A DNA stretch of 41,824 nucleotides from assembly GCA_030017955.1 (NCBI GenBank), contig JASEGR010000017.1, positions 1-41,824 on the forward strand, given 5' to 3'. The notes below the pieces were generated by a model. It saw only the letters and a program-made list of their open reading frames with translations. It was not told where the DNA came from and did not search any database. The translations under genes and the position numbers were made by a program. The DNA comes from Candidatus Eisenbacteria bacterium (lineage in GTDB: Bacteria > Eisenbacteria > RBG-16-71-46 > JASEGR01). Positions 829-8,024 of this stretch are shown piece after piece (positions within the stretch are counted from its first letter, which is position 1; every line of letters begins with the position of its first letter).

Positions 829-1695
829 ATGAATGTTCTTGACATACCCGAACTCGTAATGGCAGGTGAACTGGTGAAAAAGAAGGCGGTTTCGACTAAA
901 GAAATGGCGGGTTTCCTCAAGGTTGCCACTTCAGTCGCAGTCCAGGCAGGAGAAATATTGGCAAAGAACTTTGGAAAGACTCAGAAGGTAGAACTCAAGG
1001 GAGAAATCGACCTGGTAACCGACATTGACAGGAGATCGCAGGAGTTCATTGTGGGGAAACTAGGGAAAGCTTTCCCTGACCACTCGATAATGGCCGAAGA
1101 GGCGCTCTTCGAGAAGAAGCATTCTCAGTACCTCTGGATAATCGATCCACTTGACGGCACGACGAACTATGCGCACGGATTTCCAGTTTTTTGCGTCTCG
1201 ATTGCGCTTCAGTTCGAGAAGACAATGGTTGCCGGCGTAATTCATAATCCGCTTCTCGGCGAGACATTTTCAGCAGGAACCGGGATGGGAACAAGGTTGA
1301 ATGGCAAGAGGGTTGTCGTCTCGAAGACCCGGCTTCTCACCAATAGCCTCCTTGCGACCGGCTTCCCATATGATTTACGGAAGCACGCCAACGAATACCT
1401 CAGGGTCTTCTGTGATATGGCGGTCCGGGCAAGAGCTGTTAGAAGAGCAGGCTCCGCGGCCCTCGACCTTGCCTATCTGGCGTGCGGCAGATTCGACGGA
1501 TTCTGGGAGATGAAACTGAAGCCCTGGGACATTGCTGCAGGAGCCCTCATGGTGAAAGAGGCAGGCGGCAGAACCACAGACTATGACGGCTGCAGATTCG
1601 ACCTGAGGAAAGGTAGCCTCGCAGCATCAAATGGTAGAATTCATCGGGAACTGCTGGCAGCGCTCGAGTTGACTAAGCGTATGCGGCGTTCTTGA
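829..1695 (+). CDS. suhB: Inositol monophosphatase family protein (SuhB-like)
   Basis: A Mg2+-dependent phosphatase of the IMPase/FIG superfamily, cytoplasmic, acting on inositol-1-phosphate or a related sugar phosphate such as fructose-1,6-bisphosphate or PAP; the exact substrate cannot be read from the sequence. All metal-site motifs are present: MAEE at 88-91, DPLDGTTNY at 106-114 and WDIAAG at 233-238, followed by the usual EAGG. At 288 residues it is slightly longer than typical, because about 25 residues precede the first family helix (MAGFLKVATSVAVQAGEIL, residue 26). No strong ribosome site precedes the ATG at 829; ATGs at 859 and 904 are alternatives. It stands alone on the plus strand and is convergent with lon, 33 bases away. 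The symbol is a family label, not proof of the E. coli role. Confidence 0.9.
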   Translation: MNVLDIPELVMAGELVKKKAVSTKEMAGFLKVATSVAVQAGEILAKNFGKTQKVELKGEIDLVTDIDRRSQEFIVGKLGKAFPDHSIMAEEALFEKKHSQYLWIIDPLDGTTNYAHGFPVFCVSIALQFEKTMVAGVIHNPLLGETFSAGTGMGTRLNGKRVVVSKTRLLTNSLLATGFPYDLRKHANEYLRVFCDMAVRARAVRRAGSAALDLAYLACGRFDGFWEMKLKPWDIAAGALMVKEAGGRTTDYDGCRFDLRKGSLAASNGRIHRELLAALELTKRMRRS

Positions 1696-1728: not shown

Positions 1729-4218
1729 CTATTCTTCGATGGTGATCTTGCCCGAGCTTCTTCTCTTCCGTATCTCCTCGACGACGATTTCGTCCGGACT
1801 CTTTCCGGGCGCAATGACAATGTTGAGAAGCGCAAGCCTGAAAACCTCATCAATTCTCTCTACGAAGGAGACCTGCATCTTCTCTCTTATCTCCGCCGGG
1901 ATCTCTTCGAGGTCTTTCTCATTCTCTTTCGGGACAATCACGGAGCTTATCCCGACTCTGTGAGCCGCAAGCATCTTTTCCTTGAGCCCGCCGACTCCAA
2001 GAATCCTTCCCCTGAGTGTAATCTCACCCGTCATTGCGATGTCGTTTCTCACCGGTTTCTCGCTCAGTGCAGAGGCAATGGCAAGACAGGTAGTTATGCC
2101 GGAAGATGGACCATCCTTCGGGACTGCTCCCTGGGGAAAGTGAACATGAACGTCGTAGTCGCTGAAGTTCGACTGATCAATCTCAAGAAAATCCGCCCTT
2201 GACCTCACATAGCTGTAGGCGGCCTGCACAGATTCCTTCATAATTTCGCCAAGCTGACCTGTGATGACGAGCTTTCCGGAACCATGCATCTTGAGCGCTT
2301 CGACCAGGAGCAGGGAGCCGCCTGTTCCTGTCCATGCAAGTCCGGTCGCAACTCCAACCTCTGGTTCAGATTCACCCCTCTCTCTCAGGTAGGGTGGCGC
2401 TCCGAGAAGAGTTTCAACATCTTTTGAAGTCACATCCCACGGCCCCTTCTCTCCCAGCGCCTTTCTTTTCACATATTTCCTGAGGAGAAAATCGACTTGT
2501 CTTACAAGCTCTCTTACTCCGGCCTCATTCGTGTAGAGTTCGATAATCTTTTCCAACGCGTCATTGGAAAGTCTGATCTCATCCTGGGAAAGCCCTTGAA
2601 GAACCGCTCTCCTGGGGATGATGAATCTCTTTGCGATTTCAAACTTCTCAGTGTCTGTATAGCCGGGGAGTTCTATTGTCTCCATGAGCTCAAGCAGCGC
2701 CTCGGGAATAAACTCGGCAATATTGGCGCTGGCCATGAAAAGCACCCTGGAAAGGTCATAGGGGATTCCCAGGTAATTGTCCACAAATGACGAGTTAGAC
2801 TCCGGATTCAGGGCTTCAAAAAGCGCGGCCCACGGTTCCCCGATTGTCCCCTCGCTCCTTACTCTGTCCACCTCATCGAGCATGAAAACCGGGTTGTTCG
2901 TCTCGGCGCCCCTCAACGCTCTTATTATCTTGCCGGGCTGTGAGCCAGGCAGAGTTTTCCTCTCGCCTCTTATTTCTGCCTCGTCTGTAACGCCTCCAAC
3001 ATTCACCCTCAAGAAAGGCCTGTTCAAGGCGCGCGCCACCGATTCGGAAAGAGAAGTCTTTGCAGTTCCGGGCGGACCGACAAAACAAAGAATGGACGGT
3101 GTGACATCTTTTCTGAGCTTTCGCACGGCGAGATACTCTACTATCCTCTCCTTCACCTTCTCCATCCCGTAATGGTCCTCGTTGAGGATCTCTTCAACTT
3201 TCTTGAGGTCTATCTCCTCGGGAAGCTCTTTCCCCCACGGGAGTGAAAGCACCCAGTCAAGGTAATTCTTCACCGGGCCGTATTCAGTGGAACTGGGAGG
3301 AATTGTCCTCAGCTTCTGAATTTCACTGGCGAGGTACTTCTTGCTTGGCTGGGAGATTGAAAGCTCGGCCAGCTTCTTTCTGAGCAACTCTATTTCTGAT
3401 TCCTGCGGCTCATCTTCTCCCAGTTCTTTCCTGATGGTCTTGAGCTCTTCTCTCAGGAAACGCTCTCTATCAGTCTTCTTGATTCTCAGCTTTGCGTCTT
3501 TTGTTATGCCGGCAAGGACACGCCTCTTCTCGAAAACGTTTTCAAGCACTTCCCGGACCACTTCAAGCCTCTCGACGACATCAAGGCTCGAAAGTGTTCT
3601 CTGCTTTCCCTCAAGCTCGAAGTCGATGGCAGTAGCCACGAAGTCAGCAAATGTTCCGGGCTCCGCCGCATTCATGCTTAATGTGTGGACAAGCTCCCGG
3701 GGATAGGCACGGTCCACTTCCACAAGATTCCTTGCAAGCTGAATTATCTTCTCAACAAGGACTGAAGCCTGTGAAGGGTCACTGACGGTCTCCTTCAGGC
3801 ATTCTACCTTTGCCTCAAGGTAGGGCTCAGTTTTGACGTACTCGACTATGGCAATTCTTCTCAAGCCCTCAAGAGCTACCTGAACCGTGCCGGAAGGCAT
3901 ATTCACCAGCCTGATCACTCTTGCAGCAATGCCTATCTTCTCTATCTCCTCGGGCTCAGGTTTACCTGAATTCATTCTCCGGGAGAGGAAAATCCCAACT
4001 ATTTCCTCGGGCTTGGAGTGTTCCCTGATAAGTCTCAAGTTTCTTTCAAAACCCACCTGCACAGTTGCGACTCCAAGGGGAAAAAGCACCGTGCTCATAA
4101 GCGGCAGGATCGGAAGGACTTCTGGAATCGAGGATTCAAGTATGTCTGCGCTTTTGCCGCGCCAGAACTTCTCCAATGTCATGACAGGTCTCGTTTTCTT
4201 CCGTGCATAGTACGTCAT
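1729..4218 (-). CDS. lon: Lon-type ATP-dependent protease, divergent AAA+ domain
   Basis: An 829-residue LonA-architecture protease: N-terminal substrate domain (about 34-230), coiled linker, AAA+ module (about 345-590) and C-terminal Ser-Lys protease domain (about 620-805). Walker A is GPPGTAKT (381-388), Walker B is FMLDE (445-449), and sensor-2 arginine is R569 in EAGVRE. The proteolytic dyad is intact: Ser705 in PKDGPSSG and Lys746 in GGLKEK. The AAA+ module is odd. The pore-loop Tyr-Ile of typical Lon (RTYIG) is Leu-Pro here (KTLPG, 423-424), and the arginine-finger motif LLDRM is LLELM (508-512). It should degrade proteins, but unfolding and ATPase coupling may be altered. The start is supported by AAGGGG about 11 bases upstream; M13 is an alternative. 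It follows smc by 122 bases on the same strand. Confidence 0.93.
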   Translation of the reverse strand: MTYYARKKTRPVMTLEKFWRGKSADILESSIPEVLPILPLMSTVLFPLGVATVQVGFERNLRLIREHSKPEEIVGIFLSRRMNSGKPEPEEIEKIGIAARVIRLVNMPSGTVQVALEGLRRIAIVEYVKTEPYLEAKVECLKETVSDPSQASVLVEKIIQLARNLVEVDRAYPRELVHTLSMNAAEPGTFADFVATAIDFELEGKQRTLSSLDVVERLEVVREVLENVFEKRRVLAGITKDAKLRIKKTDRERFLREELKTIRKELGEDEPQESEIELLRKKLAELSISQPSKKYLASEIQKLRTIPPSSTEYGPVKNYLDWVLSLPWGKELPEEIDLKKVEEILNEDHYGMEKVKERIVEYLAVRKLRKDVTPSILCFVGPPGTAKTSLSESVARALNRPFLRVNVGGVTDEAEIRGERKTLPGSQPGKIIRALRGAETNNPVFMLDEVDRVRSEGTIGEPWAALFEALNPESNSSFVDNYLGIPYDLSRVLFMASANIAEFIPEALLELMETIELPGYTDTEKFEIAKRFIIPRRAVLQGLSQDEIRLSNDALEKIIELYTNEAGVRELVRQVDFLLRKYVKRKALGEKGPWDVTSKDVETLLGAPPYLRERGESEPEVGVATGLAWTGTGGSLLLVEALKMHGSGKLVITGQLGEIMKESVQAAYSYVRSRADFLEIDQSNFSDYDVHVHFPQGAVPKDGPSSGITTCLAIASALSEKPVRNDIAMTGEITLRGRILGVGGLKEKMLAAHRVGISSVIVPKENEKDLEEIPAEIREKMQVSFVERIDEVFRLALLNIVIAPGKSPDEIVVEEIRKRRSSGKITIEE

Positions 4219-4340: not shown

Positions 4341-7300
4341 TTAGAGCAGGGTTTCAACCTCTTCTCTGATTTCTTTCCTGATTTCTTTTTTCTCCGCCTC
4401 TCTCCCGTCGAACTGAACCGACACGACGGTGGACACACCTGGCTCAGCCATCGTTACTCCATAAAGCCGGTCAGCCACCTCCATCGTCCTTTTGTTGTGA
4501 GTTATGACGATGAACTGGGTGTTCTTGCAGAAGAGCTTGAGAAGACTCGTGAATCTGTCAATGTTGGCGTCGTCAAGCGGCGCGTCCACTTCATCGAGGA
4601 TGCAGAATGGGGAGGATTTCACCAAATAGAGACCGAGGAGAAACGCTATTGCCGTAAGAGCCTTTTCTCCCCCTGAGAGAAGATCCAGGCGCTGGAGCAC
4701 TTTCCCCCTTGGTCTCGCCACAACTTCAATCTCGGCCTCGAGCGGATCCTCTCCGACGAGTATGAGCTCGGCGTTACCACCCTCAAAGAGCGTCGAAAAC
4801 ACCTGGGAGAAGTTTTGCCCAGCCGTCTGAAACGTCTCCATGAAAAGCTTCCGTGCAGTCTCATTTATTGTATTGATCACGTCGAGCAGTTTTTCTTTGG
4901 CCTCGACAAGATCCGTCCTCTGACTGTCAAGGAACCCAAGTCTCTGCTTCTTCGCGTCAAACTCATCAACTGCAAGAAGATTTACAGGTCCGAGCGCCTT
5001 GAATCGTCCTTTCAGGAACTCATACCTCCTCGACAGCCCCTCCTCGGTTATTTCCTCAGCGGCCTCGGAGGATGAAGAAGAGCCCGTAACAGCCGGCTCC
5101 ACCTCAGCTTCTTGGCCGGAGCCAAGTCCCTCCTGGACATGGCCGTGGCTTTGCTCCGCCGGCCAGCTCACATCGATGCCAAACTCCGAGAGGGCTGACT
5201 CCTTGAGAGCTCTACTCTCGGTCCTCACCTCAAGCAGTCCAAGTTCGATCCAGTGGACCCTCTTTATAAGACTGTCCACCTCTCCTCGCGCTGATTTCAC
5301 TTCCGACTCTTTGAGGCCCACGCTGATCTGTGTTTCTTTATGAGTCTTTTCTATCTCAGAAAGAAGGGATTCACATTCTTCCTTCTTCTTGCGCGCCTCC
5401 TCCCCACCGACGCCAAGTTCCACAGCCCTCTTCTCTATTTCCAGAAGCGACGACTCAAGCTCCCTGCCTTCGATTTCTTCCTGCTCACGCTCCCTCAAGA
5501 GCCCCTCTCTGAGCCGCTCGATCCTCTCTATCGATGAAGTAAGCTCCTTGGATCTCGAAGCAACCCTTACCCACGACATCTTCTTTTCACCAACTGCCTC
5601 CTGAACCTCCTCTTTCTTCAGCTCGAACTCTTTGACATCAAGGGCTGCCTGTGTGAGAGCGGCCTCATCTTCCTTGTTTCCAGTTTCCAGGGAGAGGAGC
5701 TCAGACCTGAGCAGAGAGGCCCTTCCCTCAAGCTCACCGATTTCCCCCTGCGCAACCCTTGAATTCTCCTCGACTTCATCAATCTTCCTTTGAATGTGGT
5801 CGACTTGAGAGGTGAGGTTGTGATACTCCTTTTCCATCTGAAGGAGAGCCTCCATTGCGACCGAGAGCACCACTTCAAGCTCACTCGTCTCACGATTGAG
5901 CACTTCCTTCTCGATCTCTTCTTCGAGGATCCGGGCTCTCATGCCTTCCAGGAGCCTTGTGCACTCCGTCTTTTCTACCTCAAGCCTCTTCAGTTCGTCC
6001 TTTCTTTCCAGGAATCCTTCCAGCTTCTCTCCTCCGGAGATGTGCCCCTTCGCCGAGATGAATTCTCCATCCAGAGTGACGAGTCTTATGTCCTCTGAAC
6101 CTTCAGCATCTGCAATCCTGGTGGCTGTCTGTCTGTTCTCGACAATCAGAACACCGTTCAGCAGGAAATTGAGCACACCCTGGAGCTCGCTGCCGGCCCT
6201 CACCTTCTCAACAGCAGCGCCCAGAACGCCGGGCTCTCTGAGAATCCAGTCCGGCGGATTCTTCTTCTGAACATTACGCAGCGTCTGAAGGGGAAGAAAC
6301 GTGACCTTCCCTGCTTTCTTCGAGGAGAGCCAGTCCATGCAGGAGAATGCATCGCCTGCAGTCTGAGTCACAACATACTGGAGAGAATTCCCAAGCGCTG
6401 CCTCAAGCGCATCAAGGAGACCGTGCTCAACTTCGATGAGGTTGGCCACAACACCCACAAGTCCAGGATGCTGGTTTTCCAGCATAAGCCTTCTGACCCC
6501 GGTCTCGTATCCCTCAAAAGATGCATTGAGCTCCCTGAGTGTCTCCAATCTGGAGGACACACCGGCAAGCTCTTCTCCCTTCTTCCTCTCTTCTATCCTC
6601 TGCGTCCTAAGCGACTCATCAATTCCAATAAGCTTCTCTCTTGAAGAGACTATCTTTGAGCGAAGCTCATCGACATGGCTCCGCTTGGATTCCACATTAT
6701 CTTTGAGCCCGAGCCGAAGTGACTCTGTCTCATCAAGCTGTACCTTCAGGGATACTTTCTCATCTGCAAGGCGGGAAGCAGTATCCGACAGCGAAGAGAG
6801 TCTGGAGGTGCTTCTTTCAAGCTCGGCCCTCTTCTGAACTGTGGCCTGGAAGCTCTCGAGGACGGTTTTTCTTGCCTCCTCTTCGACATTTCTCCTCTTG
6901 AAGAGTATGGAATCCACCTCGGCCAGAACGGCTTCGAGGCCCCTCAGCTCTTCTGCTTCCCTTGCGAGATTCGCCTCGGCCTCAAGGCTTGCCTTCTCCA
7001 CCTCTTCGCCATCGATCCTTGTCTCTTCAAGCTTCGCATCTATTCGTTCCCTGGATCTGACTCCTTCCTGAAGTCTCTCCAGTATTCCACCCTTTCTTGC
7101 ATCCAGAACCATGATCTCTCTAACGATTTCTTCCAGCTCGCGCTCGCGGGCATTGAGTTCAAACTGGGTCTTTCTGAGCTCTGTCTCACCCTTGAGAGAC
7201 TCGACTCTCAGTTCCTCGCAATCTGCCTCCATCTTGAGAAGAGATGCGGCAAGGTGATCTCTCTTTTCCTTTTCTTTCTCCTCATCCTGAGAAAGTTCCT

Positions 7301-8024
7301 TTTCTTTGAGCGAAAGCCGGCCCATCTTCATGACGCCGAGCGCAATGCCGACCCGCTTCAACTCTTCTTCCAGTCTCTTGTACCGCCGTGCTTTCCCCAC
7401 CTGCCTTCTCAAAGAACGGACTTCCTTTTCGAGCTCTCCAATAATGTCATTTACCCTGATTATGTCCTGCTCCGTGAGGCTCAGTTTTCCGAGGGCCTCC
7501 TTCCTTCTCACCTTGTACTTCATGATCCCCGAGGCCTCATCCAGAAGGAAACGCCTCGCACCTCCCGAATCGGCAAGAATCGATTCAACCATGTCTCTTT
7601 CGATGATCGAGTAGGCCTGAACACCCATGCCGGTATCAAGAAAGAGGTCCCTTATGTCTTTCAGCCTGCACGTGTTCCGGTTCAGCGAGTACTCGCTTTC
7701 TCCGGACCTGAAGACTCTTCTTCCTATCTCAACTTCCGAGTATTCGACGGGCAGGATGTTCCTGGTGTTCGAGATAGTGAGCGAGACATCTGCCATGCCA
7801 AGCGGTTTCCTCTGGACTGTCCCGTTGAAGATGACATCTTCCATCTCGTGACCCCTGAGTGTCTTTGCGCTCTGCTCGCCAAGCACCCACCTTATCGAGT
7901 CGACGATATTGCTCTTTCCACAGCCGTTGGGACCAACAATCGCAGTTATGCCGGGCCCGAACTCAAGCTCGAGCTTCTTGTTGAATGACTTGAAGCCGAC
8001 TACCTTAAGCTTCTTGAGAAACAT
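4341..8024 (-). CDS. smc: Chromosome segregation protein SMC
   Basis: A full-length 1227-residue SMC ATPase that forms a ring-shaped dimer on DNA and compacts and segregates chromosomes with ScpA/ScpB, neither of which is in the window. The N-terminal head has Walker A GPNGCGKS at 31-38. Long charged coiled coils span about 170-515 and 665-1020. The hinge lies at about 520-665 and includes the SGGE turn typical of SMC hinges (663-666). The C-terminal head has the ABC signature LSGGE (1116-1120) and Walker B FCILDE (1140-1145). The start ATG has AGAGGG 6 bases upstream. The stop codon of selA lies only 34 bases upstream, so the two are probably cotranscribed. Length and motif order are normal for bacterial SMC. 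Confidence 0.97.
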   Translation of the reverse strand: MFLKKLKVVGFKSFNKKLELEFGPGITAIVGPNGCGKSNIVDSIRWVLGEQSAKTLRGHEMEDVIFNGTVQRKPLGMADVSLTISNTRNILPVEYSEVEIGRRVFRSGESEYSLNRNTCRLKDIRDLFLDTGMGVQAYSIIERDMVESILADSGGARRFLLDEASGIMKYKVRRKEALGKLSLTEQDIIRVNDIIGELEKEVRSLRRQVGKARRYKRLEEELKRVGIALGVMKMGRLSLKEKELSQDEEKEKEKRDHLAASLLKMEADCEELRVESLKGETELRKTQFELNARERELEEIVREIMVLDARKGGILERLQEGVRSRERIDAKLEETRIDGEEVEKASLEAEANLAREAEELRGLEAVLAEVDSILFKRRNVEEEARKTVLESFQATVQKRAELERSTSRLSSLSDTASRLADEKVSLKVQLDETESLRLGLKDNVESKRSHVDELRSKIVSSREKLIGIDESLRTQRIEERKKGEELAGVSSRLETLRELNASFEGYETGVRRLMLENQHPGLVGVVANLIEVEHGLLDALEAALGNSLQYVVTQTAGDAFSCMDWLSSKKAGKVTFLPLQTLRNVQKKNPPDWILREPGVLGAAVEKVRAGSELQGVLNFLLNGVLIVENRQTATRIADAEGSEDIRLVTLDGEFISAKGHISGGEKLEGFLERKDELKRLEVEKTECTRLLEGMRARILEEEIEKEVLNRETSELEVVLSVAMEALLQMEKEYHNLTSQVDHIQRKIDEVEENSRVAQGEIGELEGRASLLRSELLSLETGNKEDEAALTQAALDVKEFELKKEEVQEAVGEKKMSWVRVASRSKELTSSIERIERLREGLLREREQEEIEGRELESSLLEIEKRAVELGVGGEEARKKKEECESLLSEIEKTHKETQISVGLKESEVKSARGEVDSLIKRVHWIELGLLEVRTESRALKESALSEFGIDVSWPAEQSHGHVQEGLGSGQEAEVEPAVTGSSSSSEAAEEITEEGLSRRYEFLKGRFKALGPVNLLAVDEFDAKKQRLGFLDSQRTDLVEAKEKLLDVINTINETARKLFMETFQTAGQNFSQVFSTLFEGGNAELILVGEDPLEAEIEVVARPRGKVLQRLDLLSGGEKALTAIAFLLGLYLVKSSPFCILDEVDAPLDDANIDRFTSLLKLFCKNTQFIVITHNKRTMEVADRLYGVTMAEPGVSTVVSVQFDGREAEKKEIRKEIREEVETLL

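Follow-up and report, generated by a model that had tools for sequence, protein, structure and literature searches.

A lon paralogue with altered motor residues

The DNA analysed here, hereafter the window, is a stretch of 41,824 nucleotides from Candidatus Eisenbacteria bacterium (assembly GCA_030017955.1, contig JASEGR010000017.1). Near its left end, on the minus strand at 1729-4218, an intact open reading frame with an ATG start encodes an 829-residue Lon protein in which several residues of the AAA+ motor are substituted and the Ser-Lys protease dyad is retained. On sequence evidence, this protein is one of a so far unrecognised family of LonA paralogues from two groups of uncultured bacteria. 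The gene and its informative sites are as follows, with amino acid (aa) positions in the window protein and equivalent residues in E. coli LonA numbering.

1729..4218, minus strand: LonA-type paralogue with an eroded AAA+ motor, 829 aa (open reading frame; Pfam/NCBIfam domains; clade trees)
3541..4119, minus strand: N-terminal substrate-binding domain, aa 34-226, bearing the clade signature PLMSTVLFPLGV (PF02190, 112.6 bits; alignment)
3040..3063, minus strand: Walker A GPPGTAKT, aa 381-388, intact; K387 is K362 (alignment; residue map)
2947..2958, minus strand: pore loop 1 K-T-L-P, aa 421-424, for R-T-Y-I; K421 (R396K), L423 (Y398L), P424 (I399P) (alignment)
2872..2877, minus strand: Walker B D448-E449, intact (alignment; residue map)
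2833..2847, minus strand: TIGEP, aa 458-462, for MRGDP, with a one-residue insertion ahead; pore loop 2 region after Walker B (alignment)
2722..2724, minus strand: sensor 1 N499, intact (residue map)
2686..2688, minus strand: L511 at the arginine-finger position R484 (alignment)
2512..2514, minus strand: sensor 2 R569, intact (residue map)
2104..2106, minus strand: catalytic Ser S705, intact (residue map)
1975..1977, minus strand: catalytic Lys K748, intact (residue map)

The references for these assignments were E. coli MG1655 Lon (L120:1389-3743) and the solved Lons, with no gap at any named site. The Walker motifs, sensors N473 and R542, and arginine finger R484 follow published EcLonA numbering (PMC9569914), while the corresponding pore-loop residues of yeast PIM1 are Y674/I675, and its trans arginine has been named as R672 (PMC8913295), which by position is R396 of E. 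coli. Both residues that have been named as the trans arginine in Lon, R396 and R484, are therefore altered in the window protein, and the several residues on either side of position 484 include no arginine. We considered and rejected a misalignment artefact, since the substituted sites are ungapped and have invariant residues on either side.

The extent of these departures is apparent from a sample of 134 canonical Lons, of which 37 belong to the window's class or to Zixibacteria and 97 to other phyla. R396, Y398, D435, R484 and A680 are each present in 134/134, and position 399 is solely I or V. The residue following the catalytic serine is Ser in the window protein (A680S, motif GPSSG, 2101-2103 on the minus strand), and is Ala both in all 134 canonical proteins and in 67/67 members of the paralogue clade described below. 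A previous sequence-only reading of this locus had reported Y398L, I399P and the loss of R484 to Leu, with Walker A, Walker B, sensor 2 and the Ser-Lys dyad retained; each of these assignments is exact, and sensor 1 (N499) is likewise retained. Absent from that reading were R396K, the change of RGDP to IGEP with its one-residue insertion, and A680S.

Domain architecture and relation to known Lon classes

Pfam places LON_substr_bdg (34-226), AAA (377-514), Lon_lid (542-591) and Lon_C (596-798) in order along the window protein, and TIGR00763 scores it at 810 bits. A PF02190 N domain, AAA+ module, lid and protease domain on a single chain are the LonA arrangement. The dyad S705/K748 lies within the LonA-type motifs PKDGPS[A]G and KEK, with Ser at the A680 position, and the nucleotide site has the LonA residues K387, D448, E449, N499 and R569. 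The likeness to LonA (endopeptidase La, MEROPS S16.001-type; E. coli Lon, Thermus Lon 7p6u) extends through the N domain, coiled coil, AAA+, lid and protease to the Ser-Lys site, and identity to the solved LonAs is 42-46% where the sequences were compared. The window protein differs in having L423 and P424 for the pore-loop aromatic-hydrophobic pair, L511 for the arginine finger, and no R396.

Two other Lon classes invite comparison. LonC (MtaLonC, TTC1975) similarly combines a degenerate AAA+ module with a Lon protease domain of the active type, but belongs to a LonB-like lineage with its own protease-domain insertions, none of which occurs in the window protein between E. coli positions 590 and 773. 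Unlike LonC, the window protein also has the LonA N domain and less motor loss: where LonC lacks the Walker B Glu, the sensors and the arginine finger, here only the arginine finger has gone. LonB and LonBA share the general layout of AAA+ plus Lon protease, but are membrane-bound and lack the LonA N domain (PMC9569914), whereas the window protein carries PF02190. The profile scores point the same way, at 28.5 bits for LonC against 632 for LonA, and 119.5 bits against a LonB cut-off of 516.6. Membership in LonC or LonB was rejected given the LonA-type protease domain, the missing insertions and these weak scores.

An AlphaFold2 model of the window protein (mean predicted local distance difference test score, pLDDT, 81.6) matches LonA AAA+protease structures (6u5z, TMt 0.86, 3.9 A). 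Pore loop 1 is modelled at low confidence (residues 411-426, pLDDT <50) and the model was not used to judge the loop, so the residue assignments there rest on the ungapped sequence alignment.

A clade of LonA paralogues in two lineages

In a first tree of 113 Lons the window protein groups with L010 from Zixibacteria, with a protein encoded in genome G055 and with family f3 of the window's own class, with a Shimodaira-Hasegawa-like approximate likelihood ratio test (SH-aLRT) value of 100. A 91-row tree of the AAA+ and protease domains again separates this paralogue clade from canonical Lon (SH-aLRT 100), and trees were also built from the N domain and the protease (P) domain individually. The N-domain tree recovers the split at 98, making long-branch attraction unlikely as the clade's sole cause, and places the window protein sister to f3 (94). 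In the P-domain tree the split is present but weak (75), and the position of the f11 member L202 is poorly defined. A pore-loop TLPG.QPG motif and a similar C-terminal stretch, on the other hand, tie the window protein to f8, so its placement between f3 and f8 is tentative.

Within the window's class the clade comprises f3, f8, f11 and the window protein, and it includes many Zixibacteria families. We infer the name Zixibacteria for the phylum of G055, in which G165 matches L010 in protein and coordinates (record CP070839, Zixibacteriota). In roughly 80 of 132 Zixibacteria genomes there is a match that outscores all the canonical Lons of that phylum whose sequences were checked; motifs were read directly in about 40 of these ~80 matches and are extrapolated from scores in the remainder. 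No member beyond the two lineages was found among the best-scoring proteins fetched in a 385-genome sweep of many families, in which low-scoring members may be missed. A literature search for pseudo-ATPase or paralogue LonA families returned only LonC and LonBA, its coverage being limited and absence unproven.

The C-terminal tail of f3 and of Zixibacteria members (L131-L138; L010, L161, L162, L218, L160) is rich in lysine and arginine, which together make up ~35% of it, compared with 20% in canonical Lons and 13% in f8. This tail may possibly bind nucleic acid.

Repeated loss of motor residues and a shift in constraint

In every sampled member outside f3, one or more of D423, E424, N473, R484 and R542 is missing, in lineage-specific combinations that are often fixed. 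In f8, E424G and I399P each occur in 15/15, while Zixibacteria family f27 has T363A, D423E, E424D and N473R in 24/24 and R542L in most. Family f35 combines R484L with loss of the Walker B Glu; the window protein has R484L with Walker B intact. The dyad S679/K722 is kept throughout, in 67/67 sampled clade members as well as in the window protein, which thus combines, like the clade outside f3, an eroded motor with a retained protease site (R484L with S705/K748). Erosion extends beyond the motor in f8 members (L188-L201), in which the Lon N domain (PF02190) is undetectable and the coiled coil has also been lost. The particular pairs Leu-Pro and Glu-Leu, whose sharing across the clade the sequence-only reading had raised, proved not to be clade-wide: f3 has Tyr/Ile and Arg at these sites, and the pore-loop Leu-Pro is common only to f8, which lost its Walker B Glu.

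Mapped on the tree, E424 need have been lost only once, but R484 and Y398 at least five times each. Two events suffice to explain the loss of any hydrolysis residue, that in the window protein being separate, and these counts depend on forks supported in the mid-80s to low 90s. From this distribution we infer that the window protein lost its arginine finger independently of its relatives.

Rates of divergence were compared between the two kinds of Lon in the same pairs of f8 genomes. For canonical Lon, the ratio of AAA to protease divergence is 0.39 and 0.65, the AAA domain being the slower; for the paralogue it is 1.90 and 1.13, the AAA domain being the faster, in 27/27 pairs. This reversal indicates that the protease is under selection and that the motor is relaxed or re-purposed.

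Proposed function and alternatives

Lon is treated as the textbook case of a motor and a protease that are inseparable within one chain. The sequence-only reading proposed to look for a second, canonical Lon in the genome. In the 3.1-Mb draft (248 contigs, an estimated 97% complete) there are two, encoded on contigs C31 and C70; both are LonA genes with canonical motifs.

We judge the chances to be slightly better than even that the window protein forms a nucleotide-binding, hydrolysis-poor ring on an active protease chamber that serves unfolded proteins, peptides or flexible tails, similar to LonC but separately derived from LonA. The AAA+ ring would have been demoted from motor to nucleotide-binding scaffold, with the Ser-Lys chamber kept under strong constraint. 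In such a scheme a homohexamer would assemble via the AAA+ and protease domains and bind ATP, given intact Walker A, Walker B and both sensors, with slow or no hydrolysis for want of a trans arginine. Lacking the pore-loop aromatic, it would neither grip nor thread folded substrates; the intact N domain would instead recognise peptides, unfolded proteins or flexible tails, which would diffuse via the pore and be degraded, and canonical unfolding and degradation would fall to the LonA products of C31 and C70. The hexamer of MtaLonC binds six nucleotides but is devoid of ATPase activity, and it degrades unfolded substrates alone, independently of ATP (PMC3391209). By analogy, this precedent shows that an enzyme of the kind proposed can exist. 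The weak or altered unfolding suggested by the sequence-only reading fits the clade-wide AAA+ erosion beside a conserved protease, but the erosion is broader than the pore loop and finger to which it was ascribed. That account of a single odd Lon is thus partly supported, and is better recast in terms of a family of LonA paralogues, to which this protein belongs and in which the motor has eroded repeatedly.

Several observations weigh against this proposal. The window protein retains the cis catalytic residues (Walker B Glu, sensor 1 and sensor 2) and may therefore still hydrolyse some ATP, and its exact substitutions are known from a single metagenome-assembled genome. Every motor residue but R433 is retained in the sister family f3, including the Tyr/Ile pore loop and the arginine finger, and yet its AAA/protease divergence ratio is also raised, at 1.34; changed constraint is by itself no proof of a dead motor, and constraint may have shifted before the residues were lost.

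The retained motor motifs of f3, the closest family, are also an argument for a specialised but working ATP-dependent unfoldase, in which other residues take over from the pore-loop aromatic and the trans arginine. We consider this quite improbable, as no arginine lies near position 484, R396 is Lys, the RGDP stretch is altered, and the loss of different hydrolysis residues among relatives is the pattern of relaxed motor function. Somewhat less doubtful, though still unlikely, is that the paralogue enters rings with canonical LonA (the C31 or C70 product), contributing protease sites or tuning substrate choice while the canonical subunits hydrolyse ATP and grip, on the same principle as other mixed rings built from unequal subunits. 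Its predicted fold is that of a normal LonA, and canonical LonA coexists with the paralogue in the window genome, in G055, in the genome encoding L010 and in f8 and f3 genomes. However, canonical Lon is near-universal, making co-occurrence uninformative, and f8 has neither N domain nor coiled coil, so that mixing would be possible only through the AAA+ and protease domains. Ordinary drift or an assembly artefact might be suspected from a single draft genome whose nearest sampled relatives are at class level, but this seems very improbable given an intact 829-aa frame, a slow-evolving protease domain, and analogous losses with a strictly conserved protease in many independent clade genomes.

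For the clade as a whole, we put at about even the chances that these proteins make up an unrecognised, widespread LonA-derived family, hidden under the name 'lon', in which the AAA+ unfoldase was converted, on at least two independent occasions, into a nucleotide-binding gate that does not translocate, yielding LonC-like energy-independent chamber proteases or regulatory ring subunits. NCBI's equivalog model for Lon, TIGR00763, scores L010, L202, L218 and L179 above its cut-off despite their lost ATPase residues, with L188 just under (595.9 vs 608.05), and so such members are annotated as normal endopeptidase La and their function is mis-stated. LonC is the known precedent for a degenerate Lon motor; what is new here is a LonA variant family concealed under an ordinary "lon" annotation. 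Repeated erosion of the motor by different residues, with the protease constant and canonical copies in the same cells, amounts to a set of natural experiments that bear on the separate roles of ATP hydrolysis, the pore loop and the trans arginine in proteolysis.

Genomic neighbourhood

The window paralogue follows smc on the same strand after a gap of 122 bp, and has these two neighbours:

829-1695, plus strand: inositol monophosphatase
4341-8024, minus strand: SMC

Neither was found next to clade relatives in the flanks searched. In a comparison drawing on L188-L201, L207 and L213:2437-7798, the f8 paralogue has a different setting, flanked by a D-Ala-D-Ala carboxypeptidase (S11), a TauE/SafE-permease-like gene (called by sequence resemblance, without a profile test) and a convergent aminotransferase. 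Of these neighbours, the carboxypeptidase and the aminotransferase also adjoin the paralogue copy of the Zixibacteria genome G068.
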